A stretch of DNA of 64,000 nt from Agromyces aurantiacus. GTDB taxonomy: Bacteria; Actinomycetota; Actinomycetes; Actinomycetales; Microbacteriaceae. Location of the stretch: positions 620,001 through 684,000 of the forward strand of contig NZ_JAFBBW010000001.1 in the NCBI RefSeq assembly GCF_016907355.1. The letters run 5' to 3'. The notes beneath the pieces are model-generated. The model did not search any database, was not told the origin of the DNA, and saw nothing but the letters and a program-made list of their open reading frames with translations. Positions 1 through 64,000 of the stretch are shown piece after piece (position 1 is the stretch's first letter; the number at the start of each line of letters is the position of its first letter). The position numbers were made by a program, and so were the translations under genes.

Positions 1-805
1 CCGTGAGCAGGCGACCCGACGGGCTCGCGTCGAGGTGCGACGGCTGCACGATGTCGTCGCGGCCGCCCGACGGTGGCGCGACGACCGCGGCCTCGGTGCC
101 CGCGGCACGCGCGGTCGCCGCGTCGAGCTCGAACGTGTGCAGGCGGCCGTCGAGCTCGCCGATCACGTGCAGCACGCCCGCCTGCACGAGCAGGTGGCGC
201 GGGCCGGTTCCGGGGGCCAGGTCGATGGTGCGCGCGATGCGCAGCGTGGGCCCCGCGGCATCCGTCGCCCGCTCGACCACGAGCTCGTGGATCGCGTCGC
301 CGCCGAGGTCGCTCACGAGATGCGTGCCCCACGGGGTCGGCACGACCTGGTGGGCGTGCGGCGCGTCCTGGCGGTCGGCGACCGGACCGGTGCGCGGGGG
401 CAGCGGCAGCGTCACCGGGCGGCCGAGCCCACCCGACGAGTCGAACGGCACGGCCGTGACCGATCCGCCCGAGTAGTTCGCGACGAGCAGCACTCCAGAT
501 GCCGCGTCGACGACGACGTGGCACGGATCGGCCTCGCCGTGCTGCACGACGGCGACGGGCACGAGCGTCGCGCCCGCGCCATCCGGACCGCCGTCGACGC
601 GGAAGCTCGCGACCGACCCCGACGATTCCTCGAGCACCGCGAACAGCAGGTCGCCCGAGCGCGCGACGAACGAGGGGTTCGACGCGACGGCCGACGCGAC
701 GACGCGCCACTCGCCCGACGCCGACCGCTCCGCGAGGTGCAGGCTCGGCGCAGGGCCGTCGGGCGTGTACGACCCGAGGGCGAACCGACGCGCCTGCGCG
801 GTCAC
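1..805 (-). CDS. Lactonase-family (YbhE/Pgl type) beta-propeller protein, 3' end cut off
   Basis: The window edge removes the C-terminus; 268 codons remain. The visible protein begins [17 protein letters not shown] and carries the repeating blade pattern of the seven-bladed lactonase family, with landmarks [33 protein letters not shown] and GTGPRHLLV. The family includes 6-phosphogluconolactonase (hydrolysis of 6-phosphogluconolactone in the oxidative pentose phosphate route), but many members act on other sugar lactones, so the substrate is open. The GTG start overlaps the TGA stop of the upstream hydroxyacid dehydrogenase (GTGA), so the two are translationally coupled and probably share the operon controlled by the FadR-type regulator. 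A role in sugar-acid or lactone use together with that dehydrogenase is an inference. No signal peptide is visible. Confidence 0.85.
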
Positions 806-2088
806 AGCTGGACCGGCAGGCGCGACGCGGCGGCCTCGGCCGCGTCGGCGACGGGGCGTGCGACGGGCTGCAGGCGCGTGAGCTGGGTGACGTGCTTCGG
901 CGAGAGCTCGTCGAGCGTGGCGACCTCGAGCAGCTTCATGGTGCGCTCGATCTCGCCGCGCAGGATCGCGATCGTGCGGTCGACGCCGCGCCGGCCGCCC
1001 GCCATGAGGCCGTAGAGGTAGGCCCGGCCGATGAGCGTGAACCGCGCTCCGAGGGCGATCGACGCGACGATGTCGGCGCCGTTCATGATGCCCGTGTCGA
1101 CGTGGACCTCCATGTCGCCGCCGACCTCGCGGACGACGTCGGGCAGCAGGTGGAAGGGGATCGGCGCGCGGTCGAGCTGGCGGCCGCCGTGGTTCGAGAG
1201 CACGACGCCGTCGACGCCCGTGTCGGCGAGGAGCCTGGCATCCTCGACGGTCTGCACGCCCTTCACGACGATCTTCCCGGGCCAGATCTCGCGGATGACA
1301 TCGAGGTCGGCGAACGAGATCGTGGGGTCCATGGCCGAGTCGAGCAGTTCGCCGACCGTGCCGCCCGTCGACGAGAGCGACGCGAACTCGAGCTTCGGCG
1401 TGGTCAGGAAGTCGATCCACCACGCCGGGCGGGGGATCGCGTTCACGATGGTCCCCAGCGTGAGCTGCGGCGGGATCGAGAAGCCGTTGCGCTTGTCGCG
1501 CAGCCGGGCGCCCGCGACGGGCGTGTCGACCGTGAAGAACAGCGTGTCGAAGCCCGCGGCCGCGGCGCGGCGCGCGAGCTCGTACGAGATCTCGCGGTCC
1601 TTCATGACGTAGAGCTGGAACCAGTTGCGCCCGGTGGGGTTCGCGGCCTTCACGCCCTCGATCGAGGTCGTGCCGAGCGTCGAGAGCGTGAACGGGATGC
1701 CCGCGGCGCCGGCCGCGCCGGCGCCGGCCTCCTCGCCTTCGGTCTGCATGAGGCGCGTGAAGCCCGTCGGCGCGATGCCGAACGGCAGCGCGCTCGGGCC
1801 GCCGAGCACCTCGCGACTCGTGTCGACGACCGGCACGTTGCGCAGGATCGACGGGTGGAACTCCACGTCCTGGAACGCCTGCCGCGCTCGGGCCAGCGAC
1901 AGCTCGCCCTCGGCGGCGCCCTCGGTGTAGTCGAACGGCGCCTTGGGCGTGCGGCGCTTGGCGATCTCGCGCAGGTCGGCGATCGTGAGCGCCTTCTCGA
2001 GGCGCCGGTCGGTGGGGTTCAGGGTCGGCGTCTTGAACCGCATGAGCTCGGCGAGCTCGCGCGGGTTCGGGAACTGGCGCTGGACCAT
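802..2088 (-). CDS. FMN-dependent alpha-hydroxy-acid dehydrogenase/oxidase (L-lactate dehydrogenase LldD family)
   Basis: 428 aa, full length for the family. It oxidises an (S)-2-hydroxy acid such as L-lactate to the 2-keto acid using FMN in a TIM barrel. The catalytic stretch [13 protein letters not shown] holds the active-site His and the substrate-binding Arg. [18 protein letters not shown] and [11 protein letters not shown] form the phosphate-binding end of the barrel. The N-terminus ([22 protein letters not shown]) matches the family entry segment. The start is ATG after a purine-rich stretch 24 nt past the regulator stop. It is second in a minus-strand operon (regulator, this gene, lactonase), and the upstream operators resemble LldR/FadR sites, which fits lactate or a related hydroxy acid. 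The exact substrate cannot be read from the sequence. Confidence 0.9.
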
Positions 2089-2112
2089 GGTGGCTCTCTT
2101 CCTGCGATGGGG

Positions 2113-2862: not shown

Positions 2863-2883
2863 GTCGCTCCCTCCGTCGCGCGC

Positions 2884-2976: not shown

Positions 2977-3453
2977 ATGAGCGGCTACGCGTACCCTGAT
3001 CGACCCGAGGAACGGCTGAGCAACTCCGAGCGGGAGGAGGCGGTCGCGCGACTCTCCGAGGCTCAGATCGAAGGACGGCTCACGCCCGCCGAATACGACC
3101 AGCGCGCCGCGTCGGCGCGCGCGGCGGCCACGCGGGGCGACCTCGCCCCGCTCTTCGCCGACCTTCCCGATGCGGCCCCGGCCGCGGCATCCGCACCGAC
3201 CCTCCTCGGCGGGCCCGGCATGGTGCCGCCGCCGTCGGCCGGCACGCTGCCCGCTCCGGCGCGCACGTCGCGAGCGCTCGGCGGTCGCGTCGGCGACACG
3301 ATCATGGCCCTCACGCCGTTCATCGCGCTCGGACTGTTCTTCTGGTTCGGCTTCGCGGGCGGCTTCGCCTGGTCGTGGCTGTGGTTCCTGATCATCCCGA
3401 TCGCGGCGATCATCATCTACGGGCCGGGCGGCAAGCCCGACTCGGAGCGCTGA
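2977..3453 (+). CDS. DUF1707 domain membrane protein
   Basis: 158 aa. Residues about 8-60 match the DUF1707 pattern of actinobacteria (LSNSEREEAVARLSEAQIEG, GRLTPAEYDQR, TRGDLAPLFADLP), a short SHOCT-like helical module of unknown function. A Pro/Ala linker follows. Two close hydrophobic segments (about 110-130 and 133-150, ending IPIAAIIIYGPGG) anchor the C-terminus in the membrane. The ATG at 2977 is chosen because the reading frame upstream is antisense to the regulator. A -10-like CAGGCT ends 6 nt before the start, the same arrangement as other probable leaderless genes here. No specific role can be assigned. Confidence 0.85.
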   Translation: MSGYAYPDRPEERLSNSEREEAVARLSEAQIEGRLTPAEYDQRAASARAAATRGDLAPLFADLPDAAPAAASAPTLLGGPGMVPPPSAGTLPAPARTSRALGGRVGDTIMALTPFIALGLFFWFGFAGGFAWSWLWFLIIPIAAIIIYGPGGKPDSER

Positions 3454-3495: not shown

Positions 3496-4566
3496 TCAGG
3501 CCTTCTTCGGACGGATGCGCACGCGGTTGTTGCCGGGCGTCTCATCGAGCTCGACCACGCCGCCGCGCGACTTGAGGAAGTCGGTGAACGTCGGGAAGCC
3601 GAGCCGGCGCTCCTGGAACGACGGGTCCATGCGCAGCATCTGGTTCTTGACCGCGCTCGAGTCCTGCCACTCCTGGTCGTTCTTCGCGCGCAGCAGCTCG
3701 AGCGCCTTGAGGAGCAGGCGGCCGGGATTGCGCGTCGTGCCGGCCGCGGCGTCGCTGACGGCGCCCGACTCGTCGGGGGCGACGAACTGCACGGCTCGTG
3801 GTGAGCTCGGGGGAGCCGAGGCCTCCTTCGACGCCGGGGCCCCGCTCTCGGCCTCGGCTGCGGCGACCTCCGTCACGGTCTTCGACGATGCGCGTCGGCG
3901 ACGCGCGGGGGCCGCCTGCGGCGCAGCCGCCTCGGGCGTACCGTTCGATGCCTTCGAGTCGGAGCCGCGCTGCGCGACCTCGTCCTCGTCGTCGCGCACC
4001 GCGGCATCCGTCGCCAGCAGGGCGTCGTAGTCGGCGTACTCGTCGCATGCGGCCGTCAGTGCCCGGCTCGTGCCGCCGGCCACGCCGATGCCGACCACGT
4101 ACCGTCCGAGCTTCTTGGTCTTCTGGGCGAGTGCCACGTAGTCGGAGTCGCCCGCCACGATCACGATGTGCGAGAGGTTCTCGATGAGGAACAGGTCCTC
4201 GATGGCGTCGACCGAGAGGCGGATGTCGGCGCCGTTCTTCGTCGCCGACAGCGGGAAGAGCTGCACGAGGTCGACCGCGCGGTCGATGAGCTGGTTGCGG
4301 TAGCTCGCGTTCACCGGCGTGGACCAGTCGGCGTACGCGCGCGCGATCGCGATCGTGCCGAACGTCGCGGCGAAGTCGAGCACCGCATCGATGTCGACCG
4401 TCGCCTGCTGCAGCCGCTTCCACGCCTGCGTGTTCGGCTGCACGACCTTGGTGCGGCTCGTGTCCTTGCGGTACGCGCCCTCGCCGTGGAGCTGGTCGTA
4501 GCGCGAGATCACGATGTTGTCGAAGTCGAAGTAGAGCGCGACCCGGGGTTCTGCCGTTGCGGCCAT
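3496..4566 (-). CDS. NYN-domain RNase-like protein with C-terminal OST-HTH/LOTUS-type domain
   Basis: 356 aa. Residues 1-165 are a NYN (PIN-like) nuclease fold: YFDFDNI near the N-terminus supplies the first acidic residues, DIRLSVDAIEDL the middle acid, and IVIVAGDSDYVALAQ the third. A low-complexity Ala/Glu/Ser linker (about 175-275) leads to a helical C-terminal module (RLLLKALELLRAKND, FQERRLGFPTFTDFLKSRG) resembling the OST-HTH/LOTUS RNA-binding domain that often accompanies NYN. Proteins of this design are thought to process or degrade RNA. The start ATG at 4566 has GGAAGG upstream; the longer open frame beyond it is antisense to uraD. It is monocistronic. Confidence 0.88.
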   Translation of the reverse strand: MAATAEPRVALYFDFDNIVISRYDQLHGEGAYRKDTSRTKVVQPNTQAWKRLQQATVDIDAVLDFAATFGTIAIARAYADWSTPVNASYRNQLIDRAVDLVQLFPLSATKNGADIRLSVDAIEDLFLIENLSHIVIVAGDSDYVALAQKTKKLGRYVVGIGVAGGTSRALTAACDEYADYDALLATDAAVRDDEDEVAQRGSDSKASNGTPEAAAPQAAPARRRRASSKTVTEVAAAEAESGAPASKEASAPPSSPRAVQFVAPDESGAVSDAAAGTTRNPGRLLLKALELLRAKNDQEWQDSSAVKNQMLRMDPSFQERRLGFPTFTDFLKSRGGVVELDETPGNNRVRIRPKKA

Positions 4567-6546: not shown

Positions 6547-7518
6547 TCAGGCGGCCGCGGCCACCGCGTTGTGCAGTTCGTCGCCGTCGATGCCGAGGCG
6601 GCCGACGCCGCCGCCGACGTTCGTGAGCAGCACGAAGCAGACGCCGAGCGACGGGGTGATCCAGAACTCGGTACCGGCCCAGCCGCCGTGGCCGTATGTG
6701 TCGCGGGCGAGCAGGCCCGGCGCGGAGTGGCGCAGGTTCCACGTGAAGCCCCAGTCCTGCCCGCGCGACTCGGGATACGGTTCGAGTTTCGGCAGCCCCG
6801 CCGTGATCGGGCGGCGCATCGCCTCGCTCGTCACGCGGGCGACGAGCGATCCGTCGTCGCGCAGCAGCGCGCTGCCGACCGCGAGCAGGTCCGCGGCGCG
6901 CGCGAACAGCCCGGCGCCCGGATGGCGCAGCGACGCGAACCGCGGCCAGTCCAGGCCCTGCTCGGCGGCCTCGACCGGCGCGTGCGGCGAGGCGTCGGCG
7001 TCGAAGGTGAGGCCCGCGGCATCCGCTCGTTCGCCGACCTGCGCGACCGCCCGCTCCCAGGGCGCGCCCGAGGCGTCCTCGATGAGCGCGGCGATGCCCT
7101 CGAACGCGATCGTCGAGTAGCGCGAGGCGGTGCCCGCCGCGAAGTCGCGGCCGGGCGCGAGCAGCGATGGCCGCAGGCCCCGGGGCGTGTCGAGGGGCGG
7201 CTCGACGATGCCCGAGGTGTGGCTCGCGAGGTGGCGCAGCCGCACGACGTCGTCGCGGCCGGCGCCGAACGACGGGATGGCGCGGGTCAGCGGCGTGTCG
7301 GGCGTGAGCCGGCCCTGCTCGACCAGGTGCAGGGCGGCGAGCCCGACGATCGGCTTCGTGATCGAGAACAGCGGATAGTGGTCGTCGACGGAGGCCGCGC
7401 CGAACGCGTCGAGCGCGGCGACCCCGTCGGCCGTCGCGACGCCGAGCACGGCGGTCGGCAGGGGGCCCTGCTCGACGTGGCGGCGGACCCAGTCGAACGC
7501 GTGGTCGAACTGCGGCAT
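6547..7518 (-). CDS. Serine hydrolase of the beta-lactamase class C / D,D-peptidase fold
   Basis: 323 aa, no signal peptide, so probably cytoplasmic. Motif 1 is FSITK (Ser52, Lys55), motif 2 is the YST tripeptide (ASRYSTIAFEG), and motif 3 is the GHGG near residue 276. This is the penicillin-binding-protein-like fold shared by esterases, D-aminopeptidases and class C beta-lactamases. Nothing in the motifs tells these apart, and an esterase is likely given the lack of export. It has GAGAGGAA before the ATG. Its upstream neighbour on the same strand is a hydroxyacid dehydrogenase, separated by a long hairpin. Confidence 0.85.
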   Translation of the reverse strand: MPQFDHAFDWVRRHVEQGPLPTAVLGVATADGVAALDAFGAASVDDHYPLFSITKPIVGLAALHLVEQGRLTPDTPLTRAIPSFGAGRDDVVRLRHLASHTSGIVEPPLDTPRGLRPSLLAPGRDFAAGTASRYSTIAFEGIAALIEDASGAPWERAVAQVGERADAAGLTFDADASPHAPVEAAEQGLDWPRFASLRHPGAGLFARAADLLAVGSALLRDDGSLVARVTSEAMRRPITAGLPKLEPYPESRGQDWGFTWNLRHSAPGLLARDTYGHGGWAGTEFWITPSLGVCFVLLTNVGGGVGRLGIDGDELHNAVAAAA

Positions 7519-7565: not shown

Positions 7566-7625
7566 GGGGTCGTTTCGCGACATCCGTTCGACTGCGGCGC
7601 GGCGCGGATGTCGCGAGGTGACCCC
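7566..7625. repeat. Long intergenic hairpin (21-bp arms, 18-nt loop)
   Basis: Arms at 7566-7586 and 7605-7625 pair over 21 positions. Eighteen are Watson-Crick and three are G-U/U-G when read as RNA of the plus strand. The loop is 7587-7604. It fills the gap between the end of the 2-hydroxyacid dehydrogenase and the start of the serine hydrolase, both on the minus strand. No U tract follows, so it may be a repeat-type or mRNA-stabilising element rather than a classic terminator. Confidence 0.75.
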
Positions 7626-7636
7626 TGCGCAGCGGG

Positions 7637-9233: not shown

Positions 9234-10676
9234 TCAGCGGCCCGACGGCTCGTAGCGCACGGGCGGGAACGCCCGTGCGACGAGTGCGCGCAGCGACTCG
9301 AGGTCGCCCGCGACGAGGCCCTGCGCGCGCGCCTGCACGAGCACGTTGCCGATCGCGGTCGCCTCGACCGGTCCGGCGAGCACCGGCAGGCCCGAGCGGT
9401 CGGCCGTGCGCCGGCACAGCAGCTCGTTGAGCGCGCCGCCGCCGACGACGTGGATGGTCTCGACATCCACGCCCGAGCGCACCGACGCGGTGCGCACGGT
9501 CTGCGCGAACGCCTCGGCGAGGCTCTCGACGATCGAGCGCGCGAACTCGGCCCGCGTCTGCGGCACCGGCGCGTCGTGCTCGCGGCACCACTCGGCGATG
9601 CGGCCCGGCAGGTCGCCGGGCGCGAGGAAGCGCGGGTCGTTCGCGTCGAACACGGCGACGGGGTCGGTGACGGATGCCGCGGCCGCGAGCAGCGCGGGCA
9701 GGTCGATCGCCTCGCCGTCCCGCTCCCACCAGCGCACCGACTCCGACAGGAGCCAGAGCCCCATGACGTTGTGCAGGAACCGCACCCGGCCGTCGACCCC
9801 GCCCTCGTTCGTGAAGTTCGCCTCGCGCGCGGCATCCGTCGTCACCGGATGCTCGAGCTCGACGCCCACGAGGCCCCACGTGCCGCACGAGATGTACGCG
9901 GCCGACTCGGCCCGCATCGGCACCGCGACGACGGCCGACGCGGTGTCGTGCGAGCCGACCGCGACGACCTGCACGCCCGTCGGGGCGCCGAGCTCGGCCG
10001 CGACATCCGCCCGCAGGCCGCCGAGCGCGTCGCCGGGGTCGAGGAGGGGCGCGAAGACGGATGGCGGGAGGCCGAGCGTCTCGATCAGGTCGTCGTCCCA
10101 CTCGCCCGTGTCCACCGCGACGAGCCCCGTCGTCGACGCGTTCGTGCGCTCGGCGACCTTCGCGCCCGTGAGCAGGAACCCGATGAGGTCGGGGACCAGC
10201 AGCAGCGAGTCGGCGAGATCGAGCCATCCGCCGGCCTGCTCGGCCGCGAGCTGGTACACGGTGTTGAAGGGCAGGAACTGCAGGCCGTTGCGTCGGTAGA
10301 GCTCCTCGAACGGCACCCTCGCGTGCACGGCCTCGACCGCGGCCTCGTTGCGGGCGTCGCGGTAGTGGAACGGCTCGCCGAGGAGGCGGTCGCCGCGCAG
10401 CAGCCCGTAGTCGACGGCCCACGAGTCGACGCCGACCGACGCGACGCCGGGCTCGCGACGGAACGCGTCGGCGAGCCCGCGCGTGAGATCGCGGTAGAGC
10501 CCGGTGAAGTCCCAGTGCAGGCCCGACGCGAGCCGCACGGGCCCGTTCGGGAACCGCGCGACGTGCTCGAGCGCGAGCGTGCCCGCCGCCTGGTCGACGT
10601 GCCCGAGGATCACCCGTCCGCTCGTCGCGCCGAGGTCGACCGCGGCCACCGCGCCGGCGCCGTTGCTCGCGCCCAT
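9234..10676 (-). CDS. rhaB: Rhamnulokinase
   Basis: 480 aa FGGY-family sugar kinase. It phosphorylates L-rhamnulose with ATP to rhamnulose-1-phosphate. Seen: the ATP-phosphate loop AAVDLGATSGRVILG at the N-terminus, the second nucleotide motif VAVGSHDTASAVVAVP in the middle, and the adenosine-binding GGGALNELLCRRTAD near residue 400. The identity as rhamnulokinase rather than another FGGY kinase rests on the rhamnose operon context and on the short N-terminal form. The start ATG (10676) abuts a tandemly repeated hairpin, so its ribosome site lies inside that repeat. It is last gene of the operon. Confidence 0.92.
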   Translation of the reverse strand: MGASNGAGAVAAVDLGATSGRVILGHVDQAAGTLALEHVARFPNGPVRLASGLHWDFTGLYRDLTRGLADAFRREPGVASVGVDSWAVDYGLLRGDRLLGEPFHYRDARNEAAVEAVHARVPFEELYRRNGLQFLPFNTVYQLAAEQAGGWLDLADSLLLVPDLIGFLLTGAKVAERTNASTTGLVAVDTGEWDDDLIETLGLPPSVFAPLLDPGDALGGLRADVAAELGAPTGVQVVAVGSHDTASAVVAVPMRAESAAYISCGTWGLVGVELEHPVTTDAAREANFTNEGGVDGRVRFLHNVMGLWLLSESVRWWERDGEAIDLPALLAAAASVTDPVAVFDANDPRFLAPGDLPGRIAEWCREHDAPVPQTRAEFARSIVESLAEAFAQTVRTASVRSGVDVETIHVVGGGALNELLCRRTADRSGLPVLAGPVEATAIGNVLVQARAQGLVAGDLESLRALVARAFPPVRYEPSGR

Positions 10677-10863: not shown

Positions 10864-12900
10864 TCATCGCAGGAACGCGGCGGCGACGCCGGAGTCGACC
10901 GGGATGTGCAGGCCCGTGGTGCGGCTGAGCTCGGGGCCCGTGAGCACGTACACCGCGTCGGCGACGTTCTCGGGCACGACCTCGCGCTTGAGGATGGTGC
11001 GGTTCGCGTAGAACTGGCCCAGGTCCTCCTCCTTGACTCCGTAGGTCGCGGCGCGGTTCGCGCCCCAGCCGGCGGCGAAGATGCCCGAGCCGCGCACCAC
11101 GCCGTCGGGGTTGATGCCGTTCACGCGCACGCCGTGCTCGCCCAGCTCGACGGCGAGCAGACGCACTTGATGGGCCTGGTCGGCCTTGGTCGCCGAGTAG
11201 GCGATGTTGTTCGGGCCGGCGAACACCGAGTTCTTCGACGAGATGTAGATCACGTCGCCGCCCATCTTCTGCTCGATGAGCGCCTTGGCGGCGGCCTTGG
11301 CGACGAGGAACGAGCCCTTCGCCATGACGTCGTGCTGGAGGTCCCAGTCCTGCTCGGTGGTCTCGAGCAGCGGCTTCGACAGCGAGAGCCCGGCGTTGTT
11401 CACGACGAGGTCGATGCCGCCGAACGCGAGCACGGTCGCGTCGATCGCGGCCTGCACCCCGTTGGCGTCGGCGACGTTCGCGGCGACGCCGATCGCGACA
11501 TCCGTGCCACCCAGCTCGGCCGCGGCGGCTTGGGCCTTCTCGAGGTCGAGGTCGGCGACGACCACGCACGCGCCCTCGGCCGCCAGGCGGGTCGCGATGG
11601 CCTTGCCGATCCCGGATGCCGCGCCGGTCACGAACGCGATGCGGCCCTGGTGGGTCTTCGGCTTCGGCATCCGCTGGAGCTTCGCCTCCTCGAGCGCCCA
11701 GTACTCGATGCGGAACTTCTCGGCGTCGGAGATCGGGGTGTAGGTCGAGAGCGCCTCGGCGCCGCGCATCACGTTGATCGCGTTGACGTAGAACTCGCCG
11801 GCCACGCGCGCGGTCTGCTTGTTCGCGCCGTAGCTGAACATGCCCACGCCTGGGACGAGCACGATCAGCGGGTCGGCGCCGCGGATCGCAGGGGAGTCGG
11901 CGGTCGCGTGCGCGTCGTAGTACGCCTGGTAGTCGGCGCGGTACGCCTCGTGCAGCTCCTGCAGGCGCGCGAGCTGCTCCTCGAGCGTCGCCGTCGCCGG
12001 CAGGTCGAGGATCATCGGCTTGACCTTGGTGCGCAGGAAGTGGTCGGGGCAGCTGGTGCCGAGCGCCGCGAGCTCGGGCGCCCGCACGGACGCGAGGAAG
12101 TCGAGCACGACGTCGGAGTCGGTGTAGTGGCCGACCATCGGCTTGTCGGTCGAGGCGAGGCCCCGGATGGTGGGGGCGAGCGCCGCGGCGCGCGCGTGCC
12201 GCTCGGCCTCGGGCAGCGCCTCGAAGCCGGCGCGGACGCCGCCGAACGGGTCGGCCTTGCCGTGCTCGGCGATGTACGCGGCGGCGGTGTCGATGATCCA
12301 GAGCGAGTTCCGCTCCGACTCCTCCGACGTGTCGCCCCACGCGGTGATGCCGTGACCGCCGAGGATGCAGCCGATCGCGGCAGGGTTGGCGGCCTTGATC
12401 TCGGCGATGTCGAGCCCGAGCTGGAAGCCGGGGCGCCGCCACGGCACCCAGACGACCTTCTCGCCGAAGATCCTCGCGGTGAGCTGCTCGCCGTCGGCCG
12501 CGGTCGCGATCGCGATCCCGCTGTCGGGGTGCAGGTGGTCGACGTGCGCGGCGTCGACGAGGCCGTGCATGGCGGTGTCGATCGAGGGCGCGGCACCGCC
12601 CTTGCCGTGCAGGCAGTAGTCGAACGCGGCGACCATCTCGTCCTCGCGGTCGACGCCGGGGTAGACGTCCACGAGCGCGCGCATCCGGTCGAGGCGGAGC
12701 ACCGCGAGCCCGGCCTCCTTCAACGTACCGAGGTCGCCGCCGGAGCCCTTGACCCACAGCAGCTCGACGGGCTCGCCCGTGACCGGGTCGACGTCGGTGC
12801 CCTTCGCGGACGTGTTCCCGCCCGCGTAGTTCGTGTTCTTCGGCTCGGCGCCGAGGCGGTTCGACCGCGCGATGAGGTCGGCAGGAGCCTGGTTGGTCAT
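10864..12900 (-). CDS. rhaEW: Bifunctional rhamnulose-1-phosphate aldolase / lactaldehyde (short-chain) dehydrogenase
   Basis: 678 aa two-domain enzyme typical of actinobacteria and bacilli. Residues about 1-420 are a class II aldolase/adducin fold (GGNTSAKGTD, LWVKGSGGDLGTL, and Zn-ligand histidines in DAAHVDHLHPDS and GGHGITAWG). Residues about 430-678 are a Rossmann short-chain dehydrogenase with GAASGIGKAIA, NNAGLS and the catalytic YSATKADQ. It would cleave rhamnulose-1-phosphate to dihydroxyacetone phosphate and lactaldehyde, then oxidise the lactaldehyde to lactate. That product fits the FMN lactate-type dehydrogenase at 802-2088. ATG overlaps the stop of the upstream hydrolase (ATGA). 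B. subtilis calls this gene rhaEW. Confidence 0.93.
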   Translation of the reverse strand: MTNQAPADLIARSNRLGAEPKNTNYAGGNTSAKGTDVDPVTGEPVELLWVKGSGGDLGTLKEAGLAVLRLDRMRALVDVYPGVDREDEMVAAFDYCLHGKGGAAPSIDTAMHGLVDAAHVDHLHPDSGIAIATAADGEQLTARIFGEKVVWVPWRRPGFQLGLDIAEIKAANPAAIGCILGGHGITAWGDTSEESERNSLWIIDTAAAYIAEHGKADPFGGVRAGFEALPEAERHARAAALAPTIRGLASTDKPMVGHYTDSDVVLDFLASVRAPELAALGTSCPDHFLRTKVKPMILDLPATATLEEQLARLQELHEAYRADYQAYYDAHATADSPAIRGADPLIVLVPGVGMFSYGANKQTARVAGEFYVNAINVMRGAEALSTYTPISDAEKFRIEYWALEEAKLQRMPKPKTHQGRIAFVTGAASGIGKAIATRLAAEGACVVVADLDLEKAQAAAAELGGTDVAIGVAANVADANGVQAAIDATVLAFGGIDLVVNNAGLSLSKPLLETTEQDWDLQHDVMAKGSFLVAKAAAKALIEQKMGGDVIYISSKNSVFAGPNNIAYSATKADQAHQVRLLAVELGEHGVRVNGINPDGVVRGSGIFAAGWGANRAATYGVKEEDLGQFYANRTILKREVVPENVADAVYVLTGPELSRTTGLHIPVDSGVAAAFLR

Positions 12901-45986: not shown

Positions 45987-47618
<1,632 letters not shown>

Positions 47619-52090: not shown

Positions 52091-52097
52091 TGCTCGG

Positions 52098-53366
52098 GTG
52101 ATCGACCCCGTGCTGCTCCGCGAGAACCCCGACCTGGTCAAGCGCTCGCAGGAGGCGCGCGGCGAGTCTCCCGCCGTCGTCGACGAGGCGGTGGCCGCGG
52201 ATGCCGCACGGCGCGCGGCGATCGCCGCGTTCGAGTCCCTGCGGGCCGAGCAGAACGCGTTCGGCAAGCAGGTCGCCACGGCGCCCAAGGAGGAGAAGGC
52301 CGCGCTCGTCGCGCAGGCGCAGGAGCTCGCCGCGAAGGTCAAGCAGGCCAACGCGGAGGCCGCGGCCGCCGAGGAGGCGTTCCGCGCCGCGGTCCAGCGC
52401 ATCGGCAACGTCGTGATCGAGGGCGTGCCGGCCGGCGGCGAGGACGACTTCGACATCCTCCGCGAGGTCGGCGAGATCCCGGCGTTCGGCTTCGAACCGC
52501 GCGACCACCTCGAGATCGGCGAACTGCTCGACGCCATCGACATGGCGCGCGGCGCGAAGGTCTCGGGCGCCCGGTTCCACTTCCTCAAGGGCGTCGGCGC
52601 GCGCCTGCAGCTCGCCCTCATGAACATGGGCCTCGACAAGGCCGTCGCCAATGGATTCACGCCGCTGATCACGCCCACGCTCGTGCGGCCCGAGGTCATG
52701 CAGGGCACCGGATTCCTCGGCGCGCACGCCGAGGAGGTCTACCACCTGCCCGCCGACGACCTCTACCTCACCGGCACGAGTGAGGTCGCGCTCGCCGGGT
52801 ACCACGCCGACGAGATCCTCGACCTGTCGGCGGGTCCGATCCGCTACGCGGGCTGGTCGACCTGCTACCGGCGCGAGGCCGGCAGCCACGGCAAGGACAC
52901 GCGCGGCATCATCCGCGTGCACCAGTTCGACAAGCTCGAGATGTTCAGCTACGTCGATCCCGCCGACGCCGAGGTCGAGCACGAACGGCTGCTCGGCTGG
53001 CAGGAGGAGATGCTGCAAGCGCTCGGCCTCGCGTACCGCGTGATCGACGTGGCCGCGGGCGACCTCGGCTCGAGCGCCGCGCGCAAGTACGACGTCGAGG
53101 CCTGGGTGCCGACCCAGCAGGCGTACCGCGAGCTCACGTCGACCTCGAACTGCACGACGTTCCAGGCGCGCCGCCTCGACATCCGCCACCGCATCGAGAG
53201 CGGGAAGACCGCGCCCGTCGCGACGCTCAACGGCACCCTGGCCACCACCCGCTGGATCGTCGCGATCCTCGAGACCCACCAGCAGGCCGACGGCTCCGTG
53301 GTGGTCCCGGACGCACTGCGGGGCTACCTGGGCGGCCTCGAGGTGTTCCGCCCCGTCGCGCGATGA
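52098..53366 (+). CDS. serS: Seryl-tRNA synthetase
   Basis: 422 aa class II synthetase. The N-terminal coiled-coil arm (about 30-105, rich in Ala/Glu/Lys helices such as [14 protein letters not shown]) grips the long variable arm of tRNA-Ser. The catalytic domain has the class II motif 2 [23 protein letters not shown] and motif 3 [19 protein letters not shown] start follows TAGACT by 7 nt. Two tRNA-Ser genes lie 3.7 and 5.2 kb downstream. ATG of the HAD phosphatase overlaps its stop, so the two are coupled. Confidence 0.97.
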
Positions 53367-54230: not shown

Positions 54231-55667
54231 GTGAGCGAGTCCGATTCGGAACCGAGGGGCGAGGCGCCGCCGGAGGGCGGGGGCGCTCCCCACGACCGCG
54301 CCGTCGAGGAGGCCGTCGAGCTGGGCGCGTCCACCGAGGGTCCGCTCGCCGAGCCGCTGCTGCTGGTGCCCCCCGCGCCCTCGACGGGCCCGGTCGCCGC
54401 GCCCGTGCTCACGGAGGCGACGCGTCCGCCGGCGCGCCACGGCCGCCTGGCGCGGCACGGGACGGGGCGCGTGGTCGCCAAGGCGCTCGGAACCGCCGCC
54501 GCGGTCGTGGCGGTCAGCGCCACCGCCGTCGCGTCGTTCGCCGTGGTCGACGTGGTGCGCGAGATCAAGCCCGCGGTCGAGCTCGAGAGCGAGAAGATCC
54601 TCGACTCGGTCCCCGACATCGGGGCGATGGAGGGCGGACTGAACTTCCTGCTGGTCGGAAGCGACAAACGGCCGCAGAGCGGCGCGTTCGGTGATCCGGA
54701 GGAGGAGGCCGGCGTGCTGAACGACGTCACGATGCTCCTGCACATTGCCGAGGACCACTCGCACGTCGAGGTCGTCAGCTTCCCGCGCGACATGCTCGTC
54801 GACGTGCCGGCGTGTCCCGACCCGGACGATCCCTCCGGCGACGGGTTCTCGGAACGGTACGGGGTCAAGCTCAACACGATCCTCCACGACGGTGGACTGA
54901 ACTGCGTCGCGGCGACGATCGAGCAGATGCTCGGCGTGAAGATCCCGGTCGGCGGGATCGTCGAGTTCGACGGCGTCGCGGCCCTGTCGGAGGCCGTCGG
55001 CGGGGTCGAGGTCTGCCTCGTCGACCCGATCGACGACCCGTGGTCGGGGCTGCAGCTCGACGCAGGCCGGCACACGATCCACGGCTACCAGGCGCTCGCC
55101 TTCCTCCGGACGCGCCACGGTGTCGGCGACGGCAGCGACCTCGGCCGCATCTCGAACCAGCAGACCTTCCTCGCCTCGCTCGCGCGGACCCTCCAGTCCC
55201 AGGGCACGCTCGGCGATCCCGTGAAGCTGTACTCGATCGCGAAGGCCGTCCTGGCCAACATGACCCTGTCCAAGGGACTCCAGGACCCCGCTCGCCTCGT
55301 CTCGATCGCCCGTGCCATGCAGGCGATCGACCTCGACCGCATCGCGTTCATCCAGTACCCCACGTACTACACCGACGACTTCAGTGCGGTGCTGCCCGCC
55401 GAATCGGGTGCGGCCGTGGCCTCGGCGCTCCAGCGCGACGTCCCGGTGGGGATCGACCCCGCGGCGACCTCGCAGGCGTCCTACGGCACGGCGGATCCGG
55501 ATGCGACCGAGGCGCCGGTCCAGACGGATGCCGCGACGGCGCCGTCCGGCGCAGCCACGCCGGCGCCGTCCGCGAGCGCCGGCCCCGGCACGGTCGAGGC
55601 GCTGCCCGGGGATATCACGGGGCAGACGGCGGACGAGGTCCGCTGCTCGACCGCCAACGACGGCTGA
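54231..55667 (+). CDS. LytR-CpsA-Psr (LCP) family cell-wall glycopolymer ligase, copy 1
   Basis: 478 aa. A cytoplasmic tail (about 1-75), one membrane anchor (about 82-108) and an extracellular LCP domain (about 130-330) with LVGSDKRPQSG, VEVVSFPRDMLVDVPA and TRHGVGDGSDLGRISNQQ, which bind the pyrophosphate of lipid-linked polymers. It transfers teichoic-acid-like or arabinogalactan-like glycans to peptidoglycan. A long Ala/Pro/Thr linker ends in LPGDITGQTADEVRCSTAND, a motif also at the end of copy 2. GTG start has GGGGGAGGGG; a -10-like TAGGAT lies at 54207. Confidence 0.92.
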   Translation: MSESDSEPRGEAPPEGGGAPHDRAVEEAVELGASTEGPLAEPLLLVPPAPSTGPVAAPVLTEATRPPARHGRLARHGTGRVVAKALGTAAAVVAVSATAVASFAVVDVVREIKPAVELESEKILDSVPDIGAMEGGLNFLLVGSDKRPQSGAFGDPEEEAGVLNDVTMLLHIAEDHSHVEVVSFPRDMLVDVPACPDPDDPSGDGFSERYGVKLNTILHDGGLNCVAATIEQMLGVKIPVGGIVEFDGVAALSEAVGGVEVCLVDPIDDPWSGLQLDAGRHTIHGYQALAFLRTRHGVGDGSDLGRISNQQTFLASLARTLQSQGTLGDPVKLYSIAKAVLANMTLSKGLQDPARLVSIARAMQAIDLDRIAFIQYPTYYTDDFSAVLPAESGAAVASALQRDVPVGIDPAATSQASYGTADPDATEAPVQTDAATAPSGAATPAPSASAGPGTVEALPGDITGQTADEVRCSTANDG

Positions 55668-55790
55668 ACCCGGGGCCCGGGTCCAAGCCCCGCGGCCGGT
55701 GCCCGGCGGCCCGGCGACCCAGGCGTCGCGGCATCCGGCACAGCGCCTTTTCAGGCTCGACGTGGAAGTCTGTCTGGAATGCGCTTCGGC

Positions 55791-58229: not shown

Positions 58230-60437
58230 ATGCACACTTGGCCCGGCTCGACCTATCCGCTCGGCGCGACGTTCGACGGGAACGGCACCAACTTCGCGCT
58301 CTTCAGCGAGGTCGCCGAGCGCGTGGAACTCTGTCTGTTCGACGACGAGCGCGTCGAGACGCGCGTCGAACTGATCGAGGTCGACGCCTTCATCTGGCAC
58401 GCGTATCTTCCGCAGGTGCAGCCGGGGCAGCGCTACGGGTACCGGGTGCACGGGCCGTACGACCCCGAGCAGGGCCTGCGCTGCAACCCGAACAAGCTGC
58501 TGCTCGACCCCTACGCGAAGGCGGTCGACGGCGCGCTCGAGTGGAACCAGTCGCTCTTCGGCTACCCGTTCGGCGAGCCCGACGGACGCAACGACGACGA
58601 CTCGGCGGGCAGCATGATGCTCGGCGTCGTCACGAACCCGTTCTTCGACTGGTCCGGCGACCGCCACCCGCGCCGGCCGTACGCCTCGTCCTTCATCTAC
58701 GAGGCGCACGTGAAGGGGCTCACCGAGACCCTCCCGGGCGTGCCCGACGAGATCCGCGGCACGTACGCCGCGGTCGGCCATCCGGCGGTGATCGACCACC
58801 TCGTCAAGCTCGGCGTGACCGCGATCGAGCTCATGCCCGTGCACCAGTTCGTCAACGACGGCACCCTGCAGGAGAAGGGGCTGTCGAACTACTGGGGGTA
58901 CAACACCATCGCGTTCCTCGCGCCGCACAACGCCTACGCCTCGACCGGGCAGCGCGGCGAGCAGGTGCAGGAGTTCAAGGCGATGGTCAAGTCGCTGCAC
59001 GCGGCGGGCATCGAGGTGATCCTGGACGTCGTCTACAACCACACCGCCGAGGGCAACCACCTCGGCCCGACGCTCTCGATGCGCGGCATCGACAATGCGG
59101 CGTACTACCGCCTCGTCGACGACGACCCGCAGTACTACATGGACTACACGGGGACGGGCAACTCGCTGAACGTCGGCCATCCGCACGCGCTGCAGCTCAT
59201 CATGGACTCGCTGCGCTACTGGGTCATCGACATGCACGTCGACGGGTTCCGCTTCGACCTCGCGTCGACGCTCGCGCGCGAGTTCTACGAGGTGAACCGG
59301 CTGGCGGCGTTCTTCGAGCTCGTCCAGCAGGATCCCGTGGTCTCGCAGGTCAAGCTCATCGCGGAGCCGTGGGACGTGGGCCCCGGCGGCTACCAGGTGG
59401 GCAACTTCCCGCCGCAGTGGACCGAGTGGAACGGCAAGTACCGCGACACCGTGCGCGACTTCTGGCGCGGCGAGCCGGCGACCCTCGGCGAGTTCGCGTC
59501 GCGGTTCACGGGCTCGGCCGACCTGTACGAGCACTCCGGGCGGCGCCCCGTGGCCTCCATCAACTTCGTCACCGCGCACGACGGGTTCACGCTGCGCGAT
59601 CTCGTCTCGTACAACGAGAAGCACAACGAGGCCAACGGCGAGGACAACAACGACGGCGAATCGCACAACCGCTCGTACAACCTCGGCGTCGAGGGTCCGA
59701 CGGACGATCCCGACATCCTGACGCTCCGCGCCCGGCAGCAGCGCAACTTCATCACGACGCTGCTGCTCTCGCAGGGCGTGCCGATGCTCTCGCACGGCGA
59801 CGAGCTCGGGCGCACGCAGCAGGGCAACAACAACGTCTACGCGCAGGACTCCGAACTCAGCTGGATCGACTGGGAGCGCGCCGACCATCCGCTCGTCGAG
59901 TTCACCGCGGCGGTCGCGAAGCTGCGGGCCGAGCATCCGACGTTCCGGCGCAGCCGGTTCTTCGACGGACGCCCGGTGCGTCGCGGCGAGGGCGACCCCG
60001 TGCCCGACATCGTCTGGCTGCGGCCCGACGGGTCGATCATGGAGCCGGAGGACTGGGATGCCGGCTTCGGCAAGGCCATCGGGGTGTTCCTCAACGGCGA
60101 GGGCATCCGCGAGCGCGACCGGCGGGGCGAGCGGATCGTGGACCGTCACTTCGTGGTGCTGTTCAACGCGCACGACGACACGGTCGAGTTCACGCTGCCC
60201 ATGCACGAGTACTCGCCCGAGTGGGAGGTGGTCATCGACACCGCCGGGAAGCGCGCCGACAGCGACCCGATCCAGCCGGGCGGCACCATCCCGCTCGAGC
60301 AGCGCTCGCTCGTGGTGCTCTGCCAGCACGACCCGACGCCCGAGGAGGTCGACCACTCGGTCGCGGCGTCGCTGTCGGCGATGGTCGCCGCGAGCCGTGA
60401 GGAAGCACCGCCGCCGAAGTCCGAGGCGGGCGCGTGA
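58230..60437 (+). CDS. glgX: Glycogen debranching enzyme GlgX (TreX)
   Basis: 735 aa GH13 isoamylase-type enzyme. An N-terminal CBM48 ([20 protein letters not shown]) precedes the catalytic barrel: [13 protein letters not shown], nucleophile Asp in [11 protein letters not shown], acid Glu in [13 protein letters not shown], and [11 protein letters not shown]. It hydrolyses alpha-1,6 branches of glycogen to linear maltodextrins, here the substrate for TreY. ATG follows GGGGG by 7 nt. The stop overlaps treY (GTGA). In trehalose operons the gene is also named treX. Confidence 0.95.
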
Positions 60438-62830
60438 CCCGCGCGCCGCGACGCGAGCCGCGGTCGACCTACCGGCTGCAGATCCGTCCCGCGTTCGACC
60501 TGCACGATGCCGCGGCGGCCGTCGACTACCTCGACGCGCTCGGCGTCGACTGGGTGTACCTGTCGCCGATCCTGCCCGCGCGGGCCGGGTCCGACCACGG
60601 CTACGACGTCGTCGGCCATGACGAGGTCGACGAGGCGCGCGGCGGCGCGGCGGGCCTCGACGCGGTGGCGGATGCCGCGCACCGTCGCGGCCGCGGCATC
60701 CTGGTCGACATCGTGCCGAACCACGTCGGGGTGGCGGATGCCGCGCAGAACCCGTGGTGGTGGAGCCTGCTGCGGTTCGGCCGCGATTCCCCGCACGCCG
60801 GCGCGTTCGACGTCGACTGGGCGTTCACGGGCGGCCGGGTGCGGATCCCGGTGCTCGGCGGCACGGTGGAGGAGGCGGCCGCCGCGGGCGACCTGCGCGT
60901 CGAGCACGGCGAGCTGCGCTACTTCGAGCACCGGTTCCCGCTCGCACCCGGCTCGGCCGACGACGGCGCCGACGCCGCGACGGTTCACGCCCGCCAGCAC
61001 TACGAGCTCGTGCACTGGACCCGGGCGGACGCCGAGCTGAACTACCGGCGCTTCTTCGCGGTCAATGAGCTGGCCGGCGTCCGGGTGGAGGACCCGGCCG
61101 TCTTCGAGGCGACGCACTCCGAGATCGTGCGCTGGGTGCGCGACGGCCTCGCCGACGGACTGCGCGTCGACCATCCCGACGGTCTCGCCGCGCCCGGCGC
61201 CTACCTGGACCGGCTCACCGAGGCCACGGGCGGCGTGTACCTCCTCGTCGAGAAGATCCTCGAGGGCGACGAGACGCTGCCCGCGCACTGGCGCACCGAC
61301 GGCACGACCGGCTACGACGCGCTCGCCGACGTCGACCGGGTGCTCGTCGACCCCGACGGCGAGGCCGCGCTCGACGCGCTCGACGCGCGCCTGCGCGCCG
61401 AGACCGGCATCGACGGCCCGGCCGACTGGGACGAGCTGATCCACGGCACCAAGCGCGGGATCGCCGACGGGATCCTGCGCAGCGAGGTGCTCCGGCTCGA
61501 ACGGCTCGTGCCAGAGCCGCGGCCCGAGAGCACTGCCGACGCGCTCGCCGAGCTGCTCGCGTGCTTCCCCGTCTACCGGTCGTACCTGCCGGCGGGTCGT
61601 GAGCACCTCGAGGCGGCGGCCCGGATGGCGCGAGTCCACCGCCCCGACCTCGCGGCGGCGGTCGACGCGCTCGTGCCCGTGCTCGCCGACCCCTCGCAGC
61701 CGGTCGCCGTGCGGTTCCAGCAGACGAGCGGCATGGTCATGGCCAAGGGCGTGGAGGACACCGCGTTCTACCGGTGGACGCGCCTGGGATCGCTCACCGA
61801 GGTCGGCGGCGACCCGTCGGAGTTCGCGATCACGGTCGAGCGGTTCCACGACCGGCAGGAGCGTCGCCTCGCCGAGTGGCCGCACTCGATGACGACGCTC
61901 TCGACGCACGACACCAAGCGCGGCGAGGACGTGCGCGCGCGCCTCGACGCGCTCGCGGAGGCACCCGGGCGGTGGTCGCTCGAGCTCGAGGCGCTGCGCG
62001 CGAGCGCAGGGTCGACGGGCGACGGGCCGTTCGACGCGCTGCTGTGGCAGGCGATCGTCGGCGCCTGGCCGCTCAGCCGCGAGCGCGTGCACGCCTACGC
62101 CGAGAAGGCCGCGCGCGAGGCATCCGTCTCGACCCGCTGGACGGCGCCCGACGACGGCTTCGAGCGGCGCATGCACGACGTGGTCGACCGGGCCTTCGAC
62201 GTGCCCGAGGTGCGCGATCGGCTCGAGACGTTCGTGGGCTGGCTCGCGCCGGCGGGCTGGTCGAACTCGCTCGCCGCGAAGCTGCTGCAGCTGACGATGC
62301 CGGGCGTGCCCGACGTGTACCAGGGCAGCGAGCTGTGGGAGACGAGCCTCGTCGATCCCGACAACCGTCGCCCGGTCGACTTCGACCTGCGGCGGCGCAT
62401 GCTGGGCGAGCTCGACGCGGGGGTCGCGCACGGCGTCCTGCCGCCCGTCGACGCGCGCGCGGCGGCGAAGCTGCTCGTGACCTCGCGCGCGCTGCGGTTG
62501 CGGCGCGACCGGCCCGAGTGGTTCACGCGGTACCGCCCGCTCGAGGTCGTGGGCGAGGCCGCGTCGCACGCGATCGCGTTCGATCGCGGCGGCGCCGTGA
62601 CGGTCGCGACGCGCCTGCCGATCGGGCTCGCCGCGCGTGCGGGCGCCGAGCCCGCGGCATCCGCCCCGCCCGCCGCGTGGGGCGGCACCGCGGTGCTGCA
62701 CCGGCGGGAACCGGTCGTCGACGTGCTGACCGGCCGGCGGCACGACGGCGGGGCCGTGGCGCTCGCGGACCTGCTCGCGGCCTACCCGGTCGCGCTGCTC
62801 GTGCCGGCCGACGTGGAGCAGACCCGATGA
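60434..62830 (+). CDS. treY: Maltooligosyltrehalose synthase
   Basis: 798 aa GH13 enzyme. It turns the reducing end of maltodextrins into an alpha,alpha-1,1 trehalose link. Seen: [20 protein letters not shown] at the N-terminus, VDIVPNHVG, the catalytic [11 protein letters not shown] and [12 protein letters not shown], and the C-terminal [12 protein letters not shown]. The GTG start overlaps glgX, the stop overlaps treZ (ATGA), so three genes are coupled. Length is normal. Confidence 0.95.
60669..60744. repeat. Cluster of three CGGATGCCGC/GCGGCATCC words
   Basis: Two CGGATGCCGC copies (60669-60678 and 60735-60744) flank one GCGGCATCC (60693-60701), all inside treY. This 10-mer is found about 40 times in the window and is shown here as the densest example. 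Confidence 0.9.
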
Positions 62831-64000
62831 CCGTCGAGGTGTGGGCGCCCCGCCCCGCTCGCGTCGTGCTGCGCCGGCCGCGGCACGCGGATGCCGCGAT
62901 GGACCGCGGCGCCGACGGCTGGTGGCGCGCCGACATCGAGCTCGAGCCGGGCGACGAATACGGGTTCGTGCTCGACGACGACGAGCGCGCACTCCCCGAC
63001 CCGCGGTCGCGGCGCCAGCCGCGCGGCGTGCACGAGGCGAGCGCGGCGTTCGACGTCGGCGCGCATCAGTGGGCCGACGGCGCCTGGACCGGCCGCCAGC
63101 TCGCGGGCGGCGTGCTCTACGAACTGCACGTGGGCACCTTCACGCCCGGCGGCACGCTCGACTCGGCGATCGACCGGCTCGACCACCTGGTCGATCTCGG
63201 CATCGACCTCGTCGAGCTGCTGCCCGTCAACGCCTTCAACGGCACGCACAACTGGGGCTACGACGGCGTCCTCTGGTACGCCGTGCACGAGGCGTACGGC
63301 GGGCCCGCCGCGTACCAGCGCTTCGTCGACGCGTGCCACGCGCGCGGCCTCGCCGTGATCCAGGACGTCGTCCACAACCACCTCGGGCCGAGCGGCAACT
63401 ACCTTCCGCGGTTCGGGCCCTACCTCCGCGCGGCCGAGCGGAACACGTGGGGCGAGTCGGTGAACCTCGACGAGCCCGAGGTGCGACGGTACCTCGTCGA
63501 GAACGCGATGATGTGGCTGCGCGACTTCCACGTCGACGGACTGCGGCTCGACGCGGTGCACGCATTGCGCGACACGTCGGAGCGCCACATCCTGCGCGAG
63601 CTGGCCGAGCACGCCGACGCGCTCTCGGCGCACCTCGGCCGGCCCCTCTCGCTCATCGCCGAGTCCGACCTCAACGATCCGACCCTCGTCATGCCGCGCG
63701 AGGTCGGCGGGTACGGACTGACCGCCCAGTGGAGCGACGACCACCACCACGCGATGCACGTGGCGCTGACGGGCGAGACCACCGGGTACTACGCCGACTT
63801 CGCGCCGCTCGACGCGCTCGCGAAGACCACGTCGGGCGGGTTCTTCCATGACGGCACGTTCTCCTCGTTCCGGGGGCGCGAGCACGGCCGCCCGATCGAC
63901 CCGGCCGTGCCGACCTGGCGGCTCGTGACGTTCACGCAGGACCACGACCAGGTCGGCAACCGTGCCGCTGGCGACCGCATCTCGCAGACCCTCTCCGAGT
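62827..64000 (+). CDS. treZ: Maltooligosyltrehalose trehalohydrolase, 3' end cut off
   Basis: 391 codons visible, truncated by the window edge. GH13 with an N-terminal beta domain (about 1-85), then [46 protein letters not shown], nucleophile Asp in [12 protein letters not shown], Glu in [10 protein letters not shown] and [12 protein letters not shown]. It releases trehalose from maltooligosyltrehalose. The ATG overlaps the treY stop (ATGA). The order glgX-treY-treZ gives the complete glycogen-to-trehalose route. Confidence 0.95.

Follow-up and report, generated by a model that had tools for sequence, protein, structure and literature searches.

A highly iterated, non-palindromic DNA word with lineage dialects in Agromyces aurantiacus and its relatives: a possible self-DNA tag

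Results

A decamer is iterated throughout the window and the genome

The 64-kb stretch of Agromyces aurantiacus DNA analysed here (the window) carries serS (52056–53366) and treY (60434–62830), and is strewn with exact copies of the decamer GCGGCATCCG. On the plus strand, copies lie at 255–264, 3184–3193, 4001–4010, 7016–7025, 9829–9838, 13381–13390, 13891–13900, 15079–15088, 15790–15799, 20140–20149, 27578–27587, 29674–29683, 31235–31244, 38764–38773, 43475–43484, 46276–46285, 46597–46606, 47874–47883, 48933–48942 and 55728–55737, and within treY at 62654–62663. On the minus strand they lie at 2484–2493, 9671–9680, 11613–11622, 13067–13076, 13142–13151, 14126–14135, 30586–30595, 32833–32842, 34854–34863, 40579–40588, 43730–43739, 46942–46951, 49046–49055, 55525–55534 and 62888–62897, within serS at 52198–52207, and within treY at 60669–60678 and 60735–60744.

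These 39 copies compare with a mean of 1.26 and a maximum of 4 in shuffled sequence, and with Markov expectations of 1.6, 4.1 and 8.5 at orders 3, 4 and 5 respectively. The 9-mer GCGGCATCC had 44 matches (24 plus, 20 minus; shuffle mean 2.30, largest 6), bearing out the original prediction of a highly iterated word, whose estimate of about 40 copies was slightly low. The four single sites that it quoted, at 3184, 9671, 27578 and 30586, are all exact; where it placed three copies between 60669 and 60744, only the outer two are full decamers, the copy at 60693 between them matching the 9-mer alone. An extended form, CGCGGCATCCG, was present in 35 window copies. Across the genome of 3.88 Mb there were 1434 copies of GCGGCATCCG, evenly divided between the strands (722 versus 712), as compared with 57 for the reversed-word control.

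Tables of single mismatches defined the full word as a non-palindromic 11-mer with a strict core, CGGATG-N-CGCG. GGATG and the next C were strict, a single inner position was nearly free and the ends were tolerant. CGGATGNCGCG differs from its own reverse complement and is therefore no perfect palindrome. In its relaxed form the word occurred about once per 1.4 kb, at a spacing not far from random. Its density dropped in low-GC DNA, with no sites in four 2-kb bins below 62% GC and two in six bins of 62–66%, a trend in which acquired DNA is confounded with GC content. Phage Min1 carried five copies of GGATGCCG in 46 kb, an observation of little weight, as it comes from a single phage.

The word is conserved as DNA

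In the window, 27 of the 39 decamers lay wholly within called genes, genes being called with a home-made program based on GC content by codon position. Antisense copies were read as xCG-GAT-GCC-GC in 16 of 17 cases and sense copies as GCG-GCA-TCC in 8 of 10, in agreement with the codon usage (GAT, and GCA with TCC) from which selection on the DNA word had originally been proposed. Synonymous-codon permutation (60 runs), a codon-matched control of the kind suggested with that proposal, yielded a mean of 9.0 copies and a maximum of 15, as compared with 111 observed in genes; the excess thus survives, and it is the DNA word rather than the peptide that is kept. The word was also present in all six frames and outside called genes, where its density was higher than inside (5.2 versus 3.4 per 10 kb).

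Orientation, inverted pairs and replication polarity

Close inverted pairs of words lay outside called genes in 12 of 17 cases and had the +/− order in 14 of 17. One such pair in the window, formed by the variant words CGCGACATCCG and CGGATGTCGCG at 7576–7615, lies outside called genes and is hairpin-capable. In nine sample sets, word pairs 60–1000 bp apart were more often in opposite than in the same orientation (365 versus 230, 284 expected of each; binomial p = 3e-8, with pairs treated as independent). That words less than 1 kb apart tend to face opposite ways is not foreseen by models of DUS and speaks against an uptake tag. At the serS loci of Agromyces no orientation effect was found at 60–1000 bp, with 70 pairs in the same and 64 in opposite orientation.

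The start of the contig was considered as a possible origin of replication and rejected; three ORFs within the first 6 kb were tested and none proved to be dnaA, and an origin-free two-arc test was therefore used. The best split accounted for 54.5% of 378 sites, below the shuffle mean; the sites were sampled from roughly 13% of the genome, and the power of the test was checked for 65% polarity.

The word forms dialects among relatives

All 60 Agromyces genomes searched carried the word, and its excess differed between genera of similar GC content, some relatives of similar GC being without it; the comparison with relatives that was proposed together with the original prediction thus did not refute it. 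Related words were enriched in other lineages: CGGATGCCTCG in some Agromyces, GGATGCG in Microcella, GGAGGCGCG in Frigoribacterium, GGAGGCCG in Leifsonia and GTATGCCG in a second family of the same order. Listed together, the lineage dialects are CGGATGCCGCG, CGGATGCCTCG, GGATGCGC, GGAGGCGCG, GGAGGCCG and GTATGCCG. The dialects are built around a related core and are largely, not wholly, genus-specific. Exclusivity is incomplete in Herbiconiux, where CGGATGCC and CGGATGCG are both present alike, and the A. aurantiacus genome itself holds 203 T-form copies.

A shift of dialect was apparent inside Agromyces, in which G-form and T-form were negatively correlated (Spearman −0.32, n = 60, p = 0.013). 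Two genomes, G021 and G056, were low in both forms alike, and no clear word stood out de novo in their 20-kb samples. Counts of the reversed T-form control were tiny and overstate the contrast because the reversed word contains the rare CTA; Markov and codon controls are fairer. A SerS tree, with dialect labels set per genus by the analyst, is consistent with CGGATGCC being the older state; of the 80 named loci, 39 were entered together with the window, making 40 rows, and eight of these were dropped for an internal stop in the translation at the tblastn coordinates.

The word turns over between species. Sites were retained more often than flanks, in 22 of 44 cases in three near species (flanks, 68 of 435) and in 9 of 33 in five more distant species (flanks, 44 of 325). 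Half or more of the sites are thus lost, and the number of words therefore seems to matter more than individual sites.

Samples were also taken more widely. In other families of the order, de novo samples (13–20 kb per genome) in 14 of 19 gave a clear word in one only. No member of the word family was found in streamlined genomes of five genera, at 60 kb each, one genome having a weak AACACCGAT. Samples of Plantibacter and Rathayibacter held only REP-like dispersed repeats, which were not taken as dialects. The words of Clavibacter, Leucobacter and Curtobacterium were likewise rejected as weaker or of another kind: the enriched word of Clavibacter is a palindrome, and those of Leucobacter and Curtobacterium are weak. 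The codon test was uninformative in Leucobacter because only 17 genes were called there, and in Curtobacterium the seven copies equalled the permutation maximum of seven.

Competence and pilus genes

The genes comEA and comEC adjoin each other in the A. aurantiacus genome. The ComEC domain (PF03772) was matched over its cut-off, and the NCBIfam ComEA and ComEC/Rec2 models gave good E-values that were below the curated cut-offs. Three Tad-type pilus loci are present, the T2SSE matches over cut-off having Tad-type neighbours. DUS are read by pilins of the N-methyl kind, for which PF07963 had no match in the genome, and a type IVa (N-methyl) pilus as a receptor of the ComP kind was rejected on this ground. 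ComEC was found in 195 of 199 genomes of the family and, being nearly universal, makes a correlation between word and ComEC uninformative. It does not predict the word, being found also in genera in which no word was seen, e.g. g80 and g75, whose counts match those of Plantibacter and Rathayibacter, and the small-genome genera. In a weak literature search for competence in Agromyces, none of the 8 papers listed out of 1,079 contained the genus name.

Discussion

A word of this kind could be a by-product of composition, a signal for recombination, a protein-binding site, a mutational product or a tag for DNA uptake. Its favoured frames do use ordinary residues (Asp-Ala-Ala and Ala-Ala-Ser), as they would if codon usage, frequent dipeptides or GC content had produced the word. 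Such an artefact is ruled out by the synonymous permutation, and also has against it the presence of the word in all six frames, its greater density outside called genes and its absence from relatives of similar GC; we give it practically no credence. A likeness to HIP1, raised in the original prediction, is not supported in the strict sense. Genome-wide iteration in one clade would suit a word kept by methylation-linked repair or mutation bias, and HIP1 is tied to orphan methylases (PMC4390886), but the Agromyces word is no palindrome and its enriched variants break the near-palindrome. With a free N and with dialects in GGATG, GGAGG, GTATG and GGATC, no single methylase site is kept, and an 11-bp context would probably be too specific for mutation bias alone. 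We regard this explanation as highly improbable. The segregation signal that had also been suggested is, as a polar signal, disfavoured by the absence of strand polarity.

Two further alternatives deserve more weight, and both are unlikely. The word might be a Chi-like signal, read as a single strand by a helicase-nuclease of the AddAB/AdnAB type, such that the cell's own DNA ends are repaired rather than degraded. Chi motifs are over-represented and have related variants between species (PMC8022716), and the excess of opposite orientations at 60–1000 bp would suit two-ended break repair. That effect was however absent at the serS loci of Agromyces, the close inverted pairs are mostly outside genes, and the word is longer than the 8-bp Chi. 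Excerpts of the same paper (PMC8022716) place almost all E. coli Chi sites on the leading strand, as against the lack of two-arc polarity here. A search of 37 Agromyces for RecC (PF04257), which reads Chi, gave no match, and neither did genome G077 of the other word-bearing family, whereas among 23 genomes from other families 8 have it; the polarity test and this search together disfavour Chi with RecBCD. Scarcely different in its low probability is a binding site for an abundant sequence-specific protein, either an organiser of the chromosome or some other DNA-binding protein, which would have many weak sites across the genome and would make the dialects by co-evolving with them. Strict specificity, strand symmetry, a spacing not far from random and the spread over many genera of the family all agree with it. 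Yet no nucleoid protein known to us has a non-palindromic site of 11 bp in 1400–3000 copies, the hairpin pairs are left unexplained, and a genome-wide change of dialect at thousands of sites would come about more easily by uptake drive than by protein co-evolution.

We favour, at a probability of about one half, the reading of CGGATG-N-CGCG as a genome-wide self-DNA tag like DUS of Neisseriaceae or USS of Pasteurellaceae. In its favour are the balanced strands, an excess beyond codon controls, the strict core, the dialects with their shift inside Agromyces, the better retention of sites than of flanks, the inverted pairs, a density near that of DUS, and the comEA/comEC and Tad-type loci. Against it are the lack of N-methyl pilin matches, the presence of ComEC in genera where no word was seen, the clear word in only one of the 14 other families sampled, the incomplete exclusivity of the dialects, the preference for opposite orientations, and the palindromic or weak words of Clavibacter, Curtobacterium and Leucobacter. 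A receptor at the surface or in the envelope, tied to the ComEA/ComEC translocator, would favour DNA with the local dialect, the probable route being a pilus of the Tad/Flp type like the one used by Micrococcus luteus. Recombination of the DNA taken up into the chromosome would then spread and repair the word by molecular drive, and new dialects may arise as the receptor drifts. More tentatively, at somewhat less than even odds, the word may represent the first uptake code outside Proteobacteria: one linked to Tad/Flp and found in many Microbacteriaceae and part of another family, with dialects that would set the partners of gene exchange and a receptor unrelated to ComP.

To our knowledge, dialect-forming uptake words come only from two proteobacterial families. 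Those words serve as models of molecular drive and of barriers to sex between bacteria. A separate case in Actinomycetota, if true and independent, would make sequence-tagged self-DNA a convergent solution. It would offer clean natural experiments, one being the change from G-form to T-form that took place within a single genus, and a guide to the DNA to be offered in transformation of Agromyces, Microbacterium and Cryobacterium. If the word is no uptake signal, it is a new kind of genome-wide, dialect-forming word, for which a reader is still needed.

Comparison with known systems

Segregation words of the KOPS/AIMS type are strand-polar towards the terminus, and the Agromyces word differs from them in showing no strand polarity in the two-arc test. 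With HIP1 of cyanobacteria it shares a clade-bound, highly iterated occurrence; HIP1 is however a palindrome, GCGATCGC, linked to methylases (PMC4390886), whereas the Agromyces word is non-palindromic and has dialects. Chi and Chi-like sites are similarly over-represented short motifs with lineage variants, from which the present word differs in its greater length, in lacking replication polarity and in belonging to a genus of which 37 members were searched for RecC without a match. The comEA/comEC and Tad-type loci of A. aurantiacus resemble the Flp/Tad-dependent transformation system of Micrococcus luteus (PMC6370729), excerpts of which hold no mention of an uptake word.

USS of Pasteurellaceae differ in sequence and phylum, and are likewise highly repeated short words with subtypes, in naturally competent hosts. 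DUS of Neisseriaceae differ from the Agromyces word in sequence; the latter belongs to Actinomycetota, in a genome where Tad-type loci take the place of N-methyl pilins, which were not found, and words of the Agromyces type show a preference for opposite orientation up to about 1 kb. The likenesses are nonetheless several. Both are non-palindromic words of 10–12 bp, present about once per 1–1.5 kb (about 1.15 kb for DUS; PMC2397512) and divided into dialects by lineage (PMC3630211; PMC2397512). In DUS the core is essential and the flanks are graded (PMC3630211), and the Agromyces word has a strict core with graded tolerance elsewhere and is in large excess on both strands. Inverted pairs of DUS act as terminators (PMC2397512), and those of Agromyces are hairpin-capable and lie mostly outside called genes.

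Abundance and shape of the word

The 9-mer GCGGCATCC occurred 44 times in the 64-kb window as compared with a shuffle mean of 2.3, and the decamer that contains it, GCGGCATCCG, 39 times as compared with 1.26 under shuffling, confirming the original observation of a highly iterated word. The 3,884,057-base contig in which the window occupies 620001-684000 carried 722 forward and 712 reverse copies of the decamer, against 21 forward and 36 reverse for the same word read backwards, which served as a control. SerS of the window (52056-53366) had its closest matches in Agromyces species, with identity up to 93%, which places the genome in Agromyces (family Microbacteriaceae).

The anatomy of the word was determined in 464 kb of the A. 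aurantiacus genome, comprising the window and 20 stretches. The extended word in this sample was the 11-mer CGGATG-N-CGCG. Position 7 was C, G, T or A in 146, 53, 50 and 16 copies, respectively, an order-3 model expecting 3 to 5 of each. Substitutions in GGATG or at the C of position 8 reduced counts to a few, mostly near expectation; some changes were allowed at the first C and at positions 9 and 11, with A at position 9 in 20 copies (1.1 expected) and T in 19 (2.5 expected). When positions 7 and 9 were left free, this relaxed word had 335 sites, or one per 1.4 kb.

Genes predicted with our own caller contained 111 decamers, whereas permuting their synonymous codons 60 times gave 9.0 (maximum 15). 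For the relaxed 11-mer, the corresponding counts were 165 and 14.1 (maximum 20). The decamer occupied all six frames of these genes, and was denser outside them (5.2 per 10 kb) than inside (3.4 per 10 kb). Together, these results indicate that the DNA word is the target of selection or drive, and bear out the proposal that it is the DNA word, not the peptide, that is kept.

Spread of the word and its dialects

The decamer was present in all 60 Agromyces genomes searched (A. aurantiacus and 59 others), at 140 to 3082 copies, and never fell below 3.8 times the count of the reversed word; across 19 other families of the order (39 genomes) its ratio to this control was ∼0.1-2.3. Comparison with related genera, across 398 Microbacteriaceae genomes, revealed a graded excess, strong in some genera and absent in others. 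A second set of counts, from the 31 genomes behind the named loci, agreed with this survey. There were 1258 copies in Leifsonia sp. Root4, 813 in a Herbiconiux and 673 in a Salinibacterium, and counts at or near control level in two Frigoribacterium genomes and in one genome each of Leucobacter, Plantibacter (69 vs. 44) and Rathayibacter.

Genomes poor in the decamer were often rich in another form. Within Agromyces, CGGATGCCTCG had 35 copies in 120 kb of one genome (G038), with 0.5 expected. The T-form of the decamer ranged from 70 to 1390 copies across the 60 genomes, its reversed control, an easy one, reaching at most 7. Counts of the T-form and of the decamer itself (the G-form) were negatively correlated (Spearman -0.32, p = 0.013). 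The two forms co-occurred, the G-form being commoner in 47 genomes and the T-form in 13; both were low in G021 and G056.

Frigoribacterium used AGGAGGCGCGG (45 copies vs. 0.45; 26 vs. 1.05 by codon permutation). Among 199 family genomes searched, GGAGGCGCGG was clearly over-represented in three genomes of g65, a genus taken as Frigoribacterium from matching counts (926-1378 copies), and in three of genus g61 (220-688); a single g85 genome showed a smaller excess (399 vs. 142). The dialects were GGATGCGC in Microcella, GGAGGCCG in Leifsonia (73 vs. 24 in serS loci) and CGGATGCCG in Microbacterium; Herbiconiux used CGGATGCC and CGGATGCG equally, Cryobacterium and Mycetocola had the core lengthened on its 5' side, and the Curtobacterium word, GGGAGGC, was weak. 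Dialects are thus largely genus-specific, and not mutually exclusive. On a SerS tree of 32 rows, CGGATGCC fell on both sides of the midpoint root; GGAGGCGCG, GGGAGGC, GGAGGCCG, GGATCC and TGGATCG were each confined to one branch, and GGATGCG required two changes. This distribution would fit CGGATGCC being older and the other dialects derived, the midpoint root serving for drawing only.

New words outside Microbacteriaceae were sought in 14 of the 19 other families, in one 13-20 kb stretch per genome (three genomes for f3), and a clear one was found in f18 only. This word, GTATGCCGYG, had 226-1328 copies in five of nine f18 genomes and at most 32 in the other 140 genomes searched. Also written GTATGCCG[C/T]G, it is a related word (loci L214-L218 and L194 of genome G077). 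Faint related words in f6 (CGCGGCATC, 6 vs. 0.9) and f20 (CGATGCCG, 12 vs. 2.6) were indistinguishable from chance at 13-20 kb.

Other iterated words

Plantibacter (L114, L170-L173, L048) had a dispersed REP-like repeat with GGTCCCTGAG and AGCTTGTCGA, one 10-mer reaching 27 copies (0.3 expected), and Rathayibacter (L116, L146-L150, L078) a dispersed repeat around CGTATCGAGA / GGCTACTCGA, with one 10-mer at 25 copies (0.1 expected). The Clavibacter palindrome CGGATCCG (L115, L141-L145, L057) was over-represented (122 vs. 34; 49 vs. 7.3 in genes by codon permutation), and resembles the cyanobacterial palindrome HIP1 more than the other words do. In the streamlined 1.4-Mb genome G108 (L199-L201), AACACCGAT occurred 15 times in 60 kb (0.8 expected), and may be iterated there as an unrelated word.

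Arrangement and turnover

No chromosome-arm polarity was detected among 378 relaxed sites from ∼13% of the genome: the best two-arm split reached 54.5%, below the shuffle mean, and a bias of 65% would have stood out clearly. Low-GC bins had few or no sites, an effect confounded by GC. Seventeen inverted word pairs lay <60 bp apart, of which 14 were ordered CGGATG... then ...CATCCG. Twelve were outside called genes, four of these between convergent genes, and several stems were longer than the word itself. In Neisseria, pairs of the DNA uptake sequence (DUS) are described as acting as terminators (PMC2397512).

Against three Agromyces at ∼83% identity, the word was kept in 22 of 44 site comparisons, as compared with 68 of 435 flanking 11-mers unchanged (odds ratio 5.4); against five more distant Agromyces the figures were 9 of 33 and 44 of 325.

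Possible roles of the word

Since the word combines a strict core, tolerant ends, strand balance, near-DUS density, lineage dialects, turnover and hairpin pairs, its most likely role, at a probability of about one half, would be that of an uptake-type self tag working like DUS. The A. aurantiacus genome contained comEC (PF03772, 8.6e-40) with a comEA-like gene immediately upstream, the matches to the NCBIfam models for comEA/comEC falling below curated cut-offs; ComEC was found in 195 of 199 family genomes. No N-methyl pilin was found in the A. aurantiacus genome, and three secretion-ATPase matches were above cut-off, in three separate Tad-type loci (L223, L224 and L225). The first belonged to a run that also encoded RcpC/CpaB, a ParA-like ATPase and two T2SSF proteins; the second had close by a PF13400 (TadE/G-like) protein and a peptide of 55 residues, without a Pfam match, that we read as Flp-like; and the third lay near a TadE-like protein slightly below its cut-off. 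In our reading the second locus resembles the competence locus of Micrococcus luteus, where transformation is carried out by Flp pili with comEA/comEC (PMC6370729).

A Chi-like recombination signal, read by an AdnAB/AddAB-type enzyme, retains some weight because of an orientation effect. In nine sample sets from several genera, spanning several dialects, words 60-1000 bp apart were in opposite orientation in 365 pairs and in the same orientation in 230 (284 expected each), as compared with 462 and 441 at 1000-2500 bp; these counts exclude a 7-kb overlap, and the effect was noticed post hoc. Control words in the A. aurantiacus genome leaned the other way (median 44-45% opposite, 95th percentile 56-57%), and the effect was absent in eight Agromyces serS loci (64 opposite, 70 same). 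A search for RecC gave no match in any of 37 Agromyces genomes or in G077 (f18), and matches in 8 of 23 genomes from other families of the order. It is also possible that an architectural protein reads the word.

The literature searched, with subscription journals mostly outside it and an earlier report thus conceivable, revealed no report of an uptake word in Actinomycetota, and no paper in it gave the decamer, or a shifted version of it, as a free-standing word. A self tag remains our preferred reading. Because a type IVa pilin was searched for and not found, and the self-tag role is putative, we liken the word to DUS and to USS, the Pasteurellaceae equivalent, from sequence features and do not class it as a member of either. 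We are aware of no further type of iterated word in bacteria with all of its traits; core, ends, strand balance, density, dialects, turnover and hairpin pairs form the same set in both DUS and USS.
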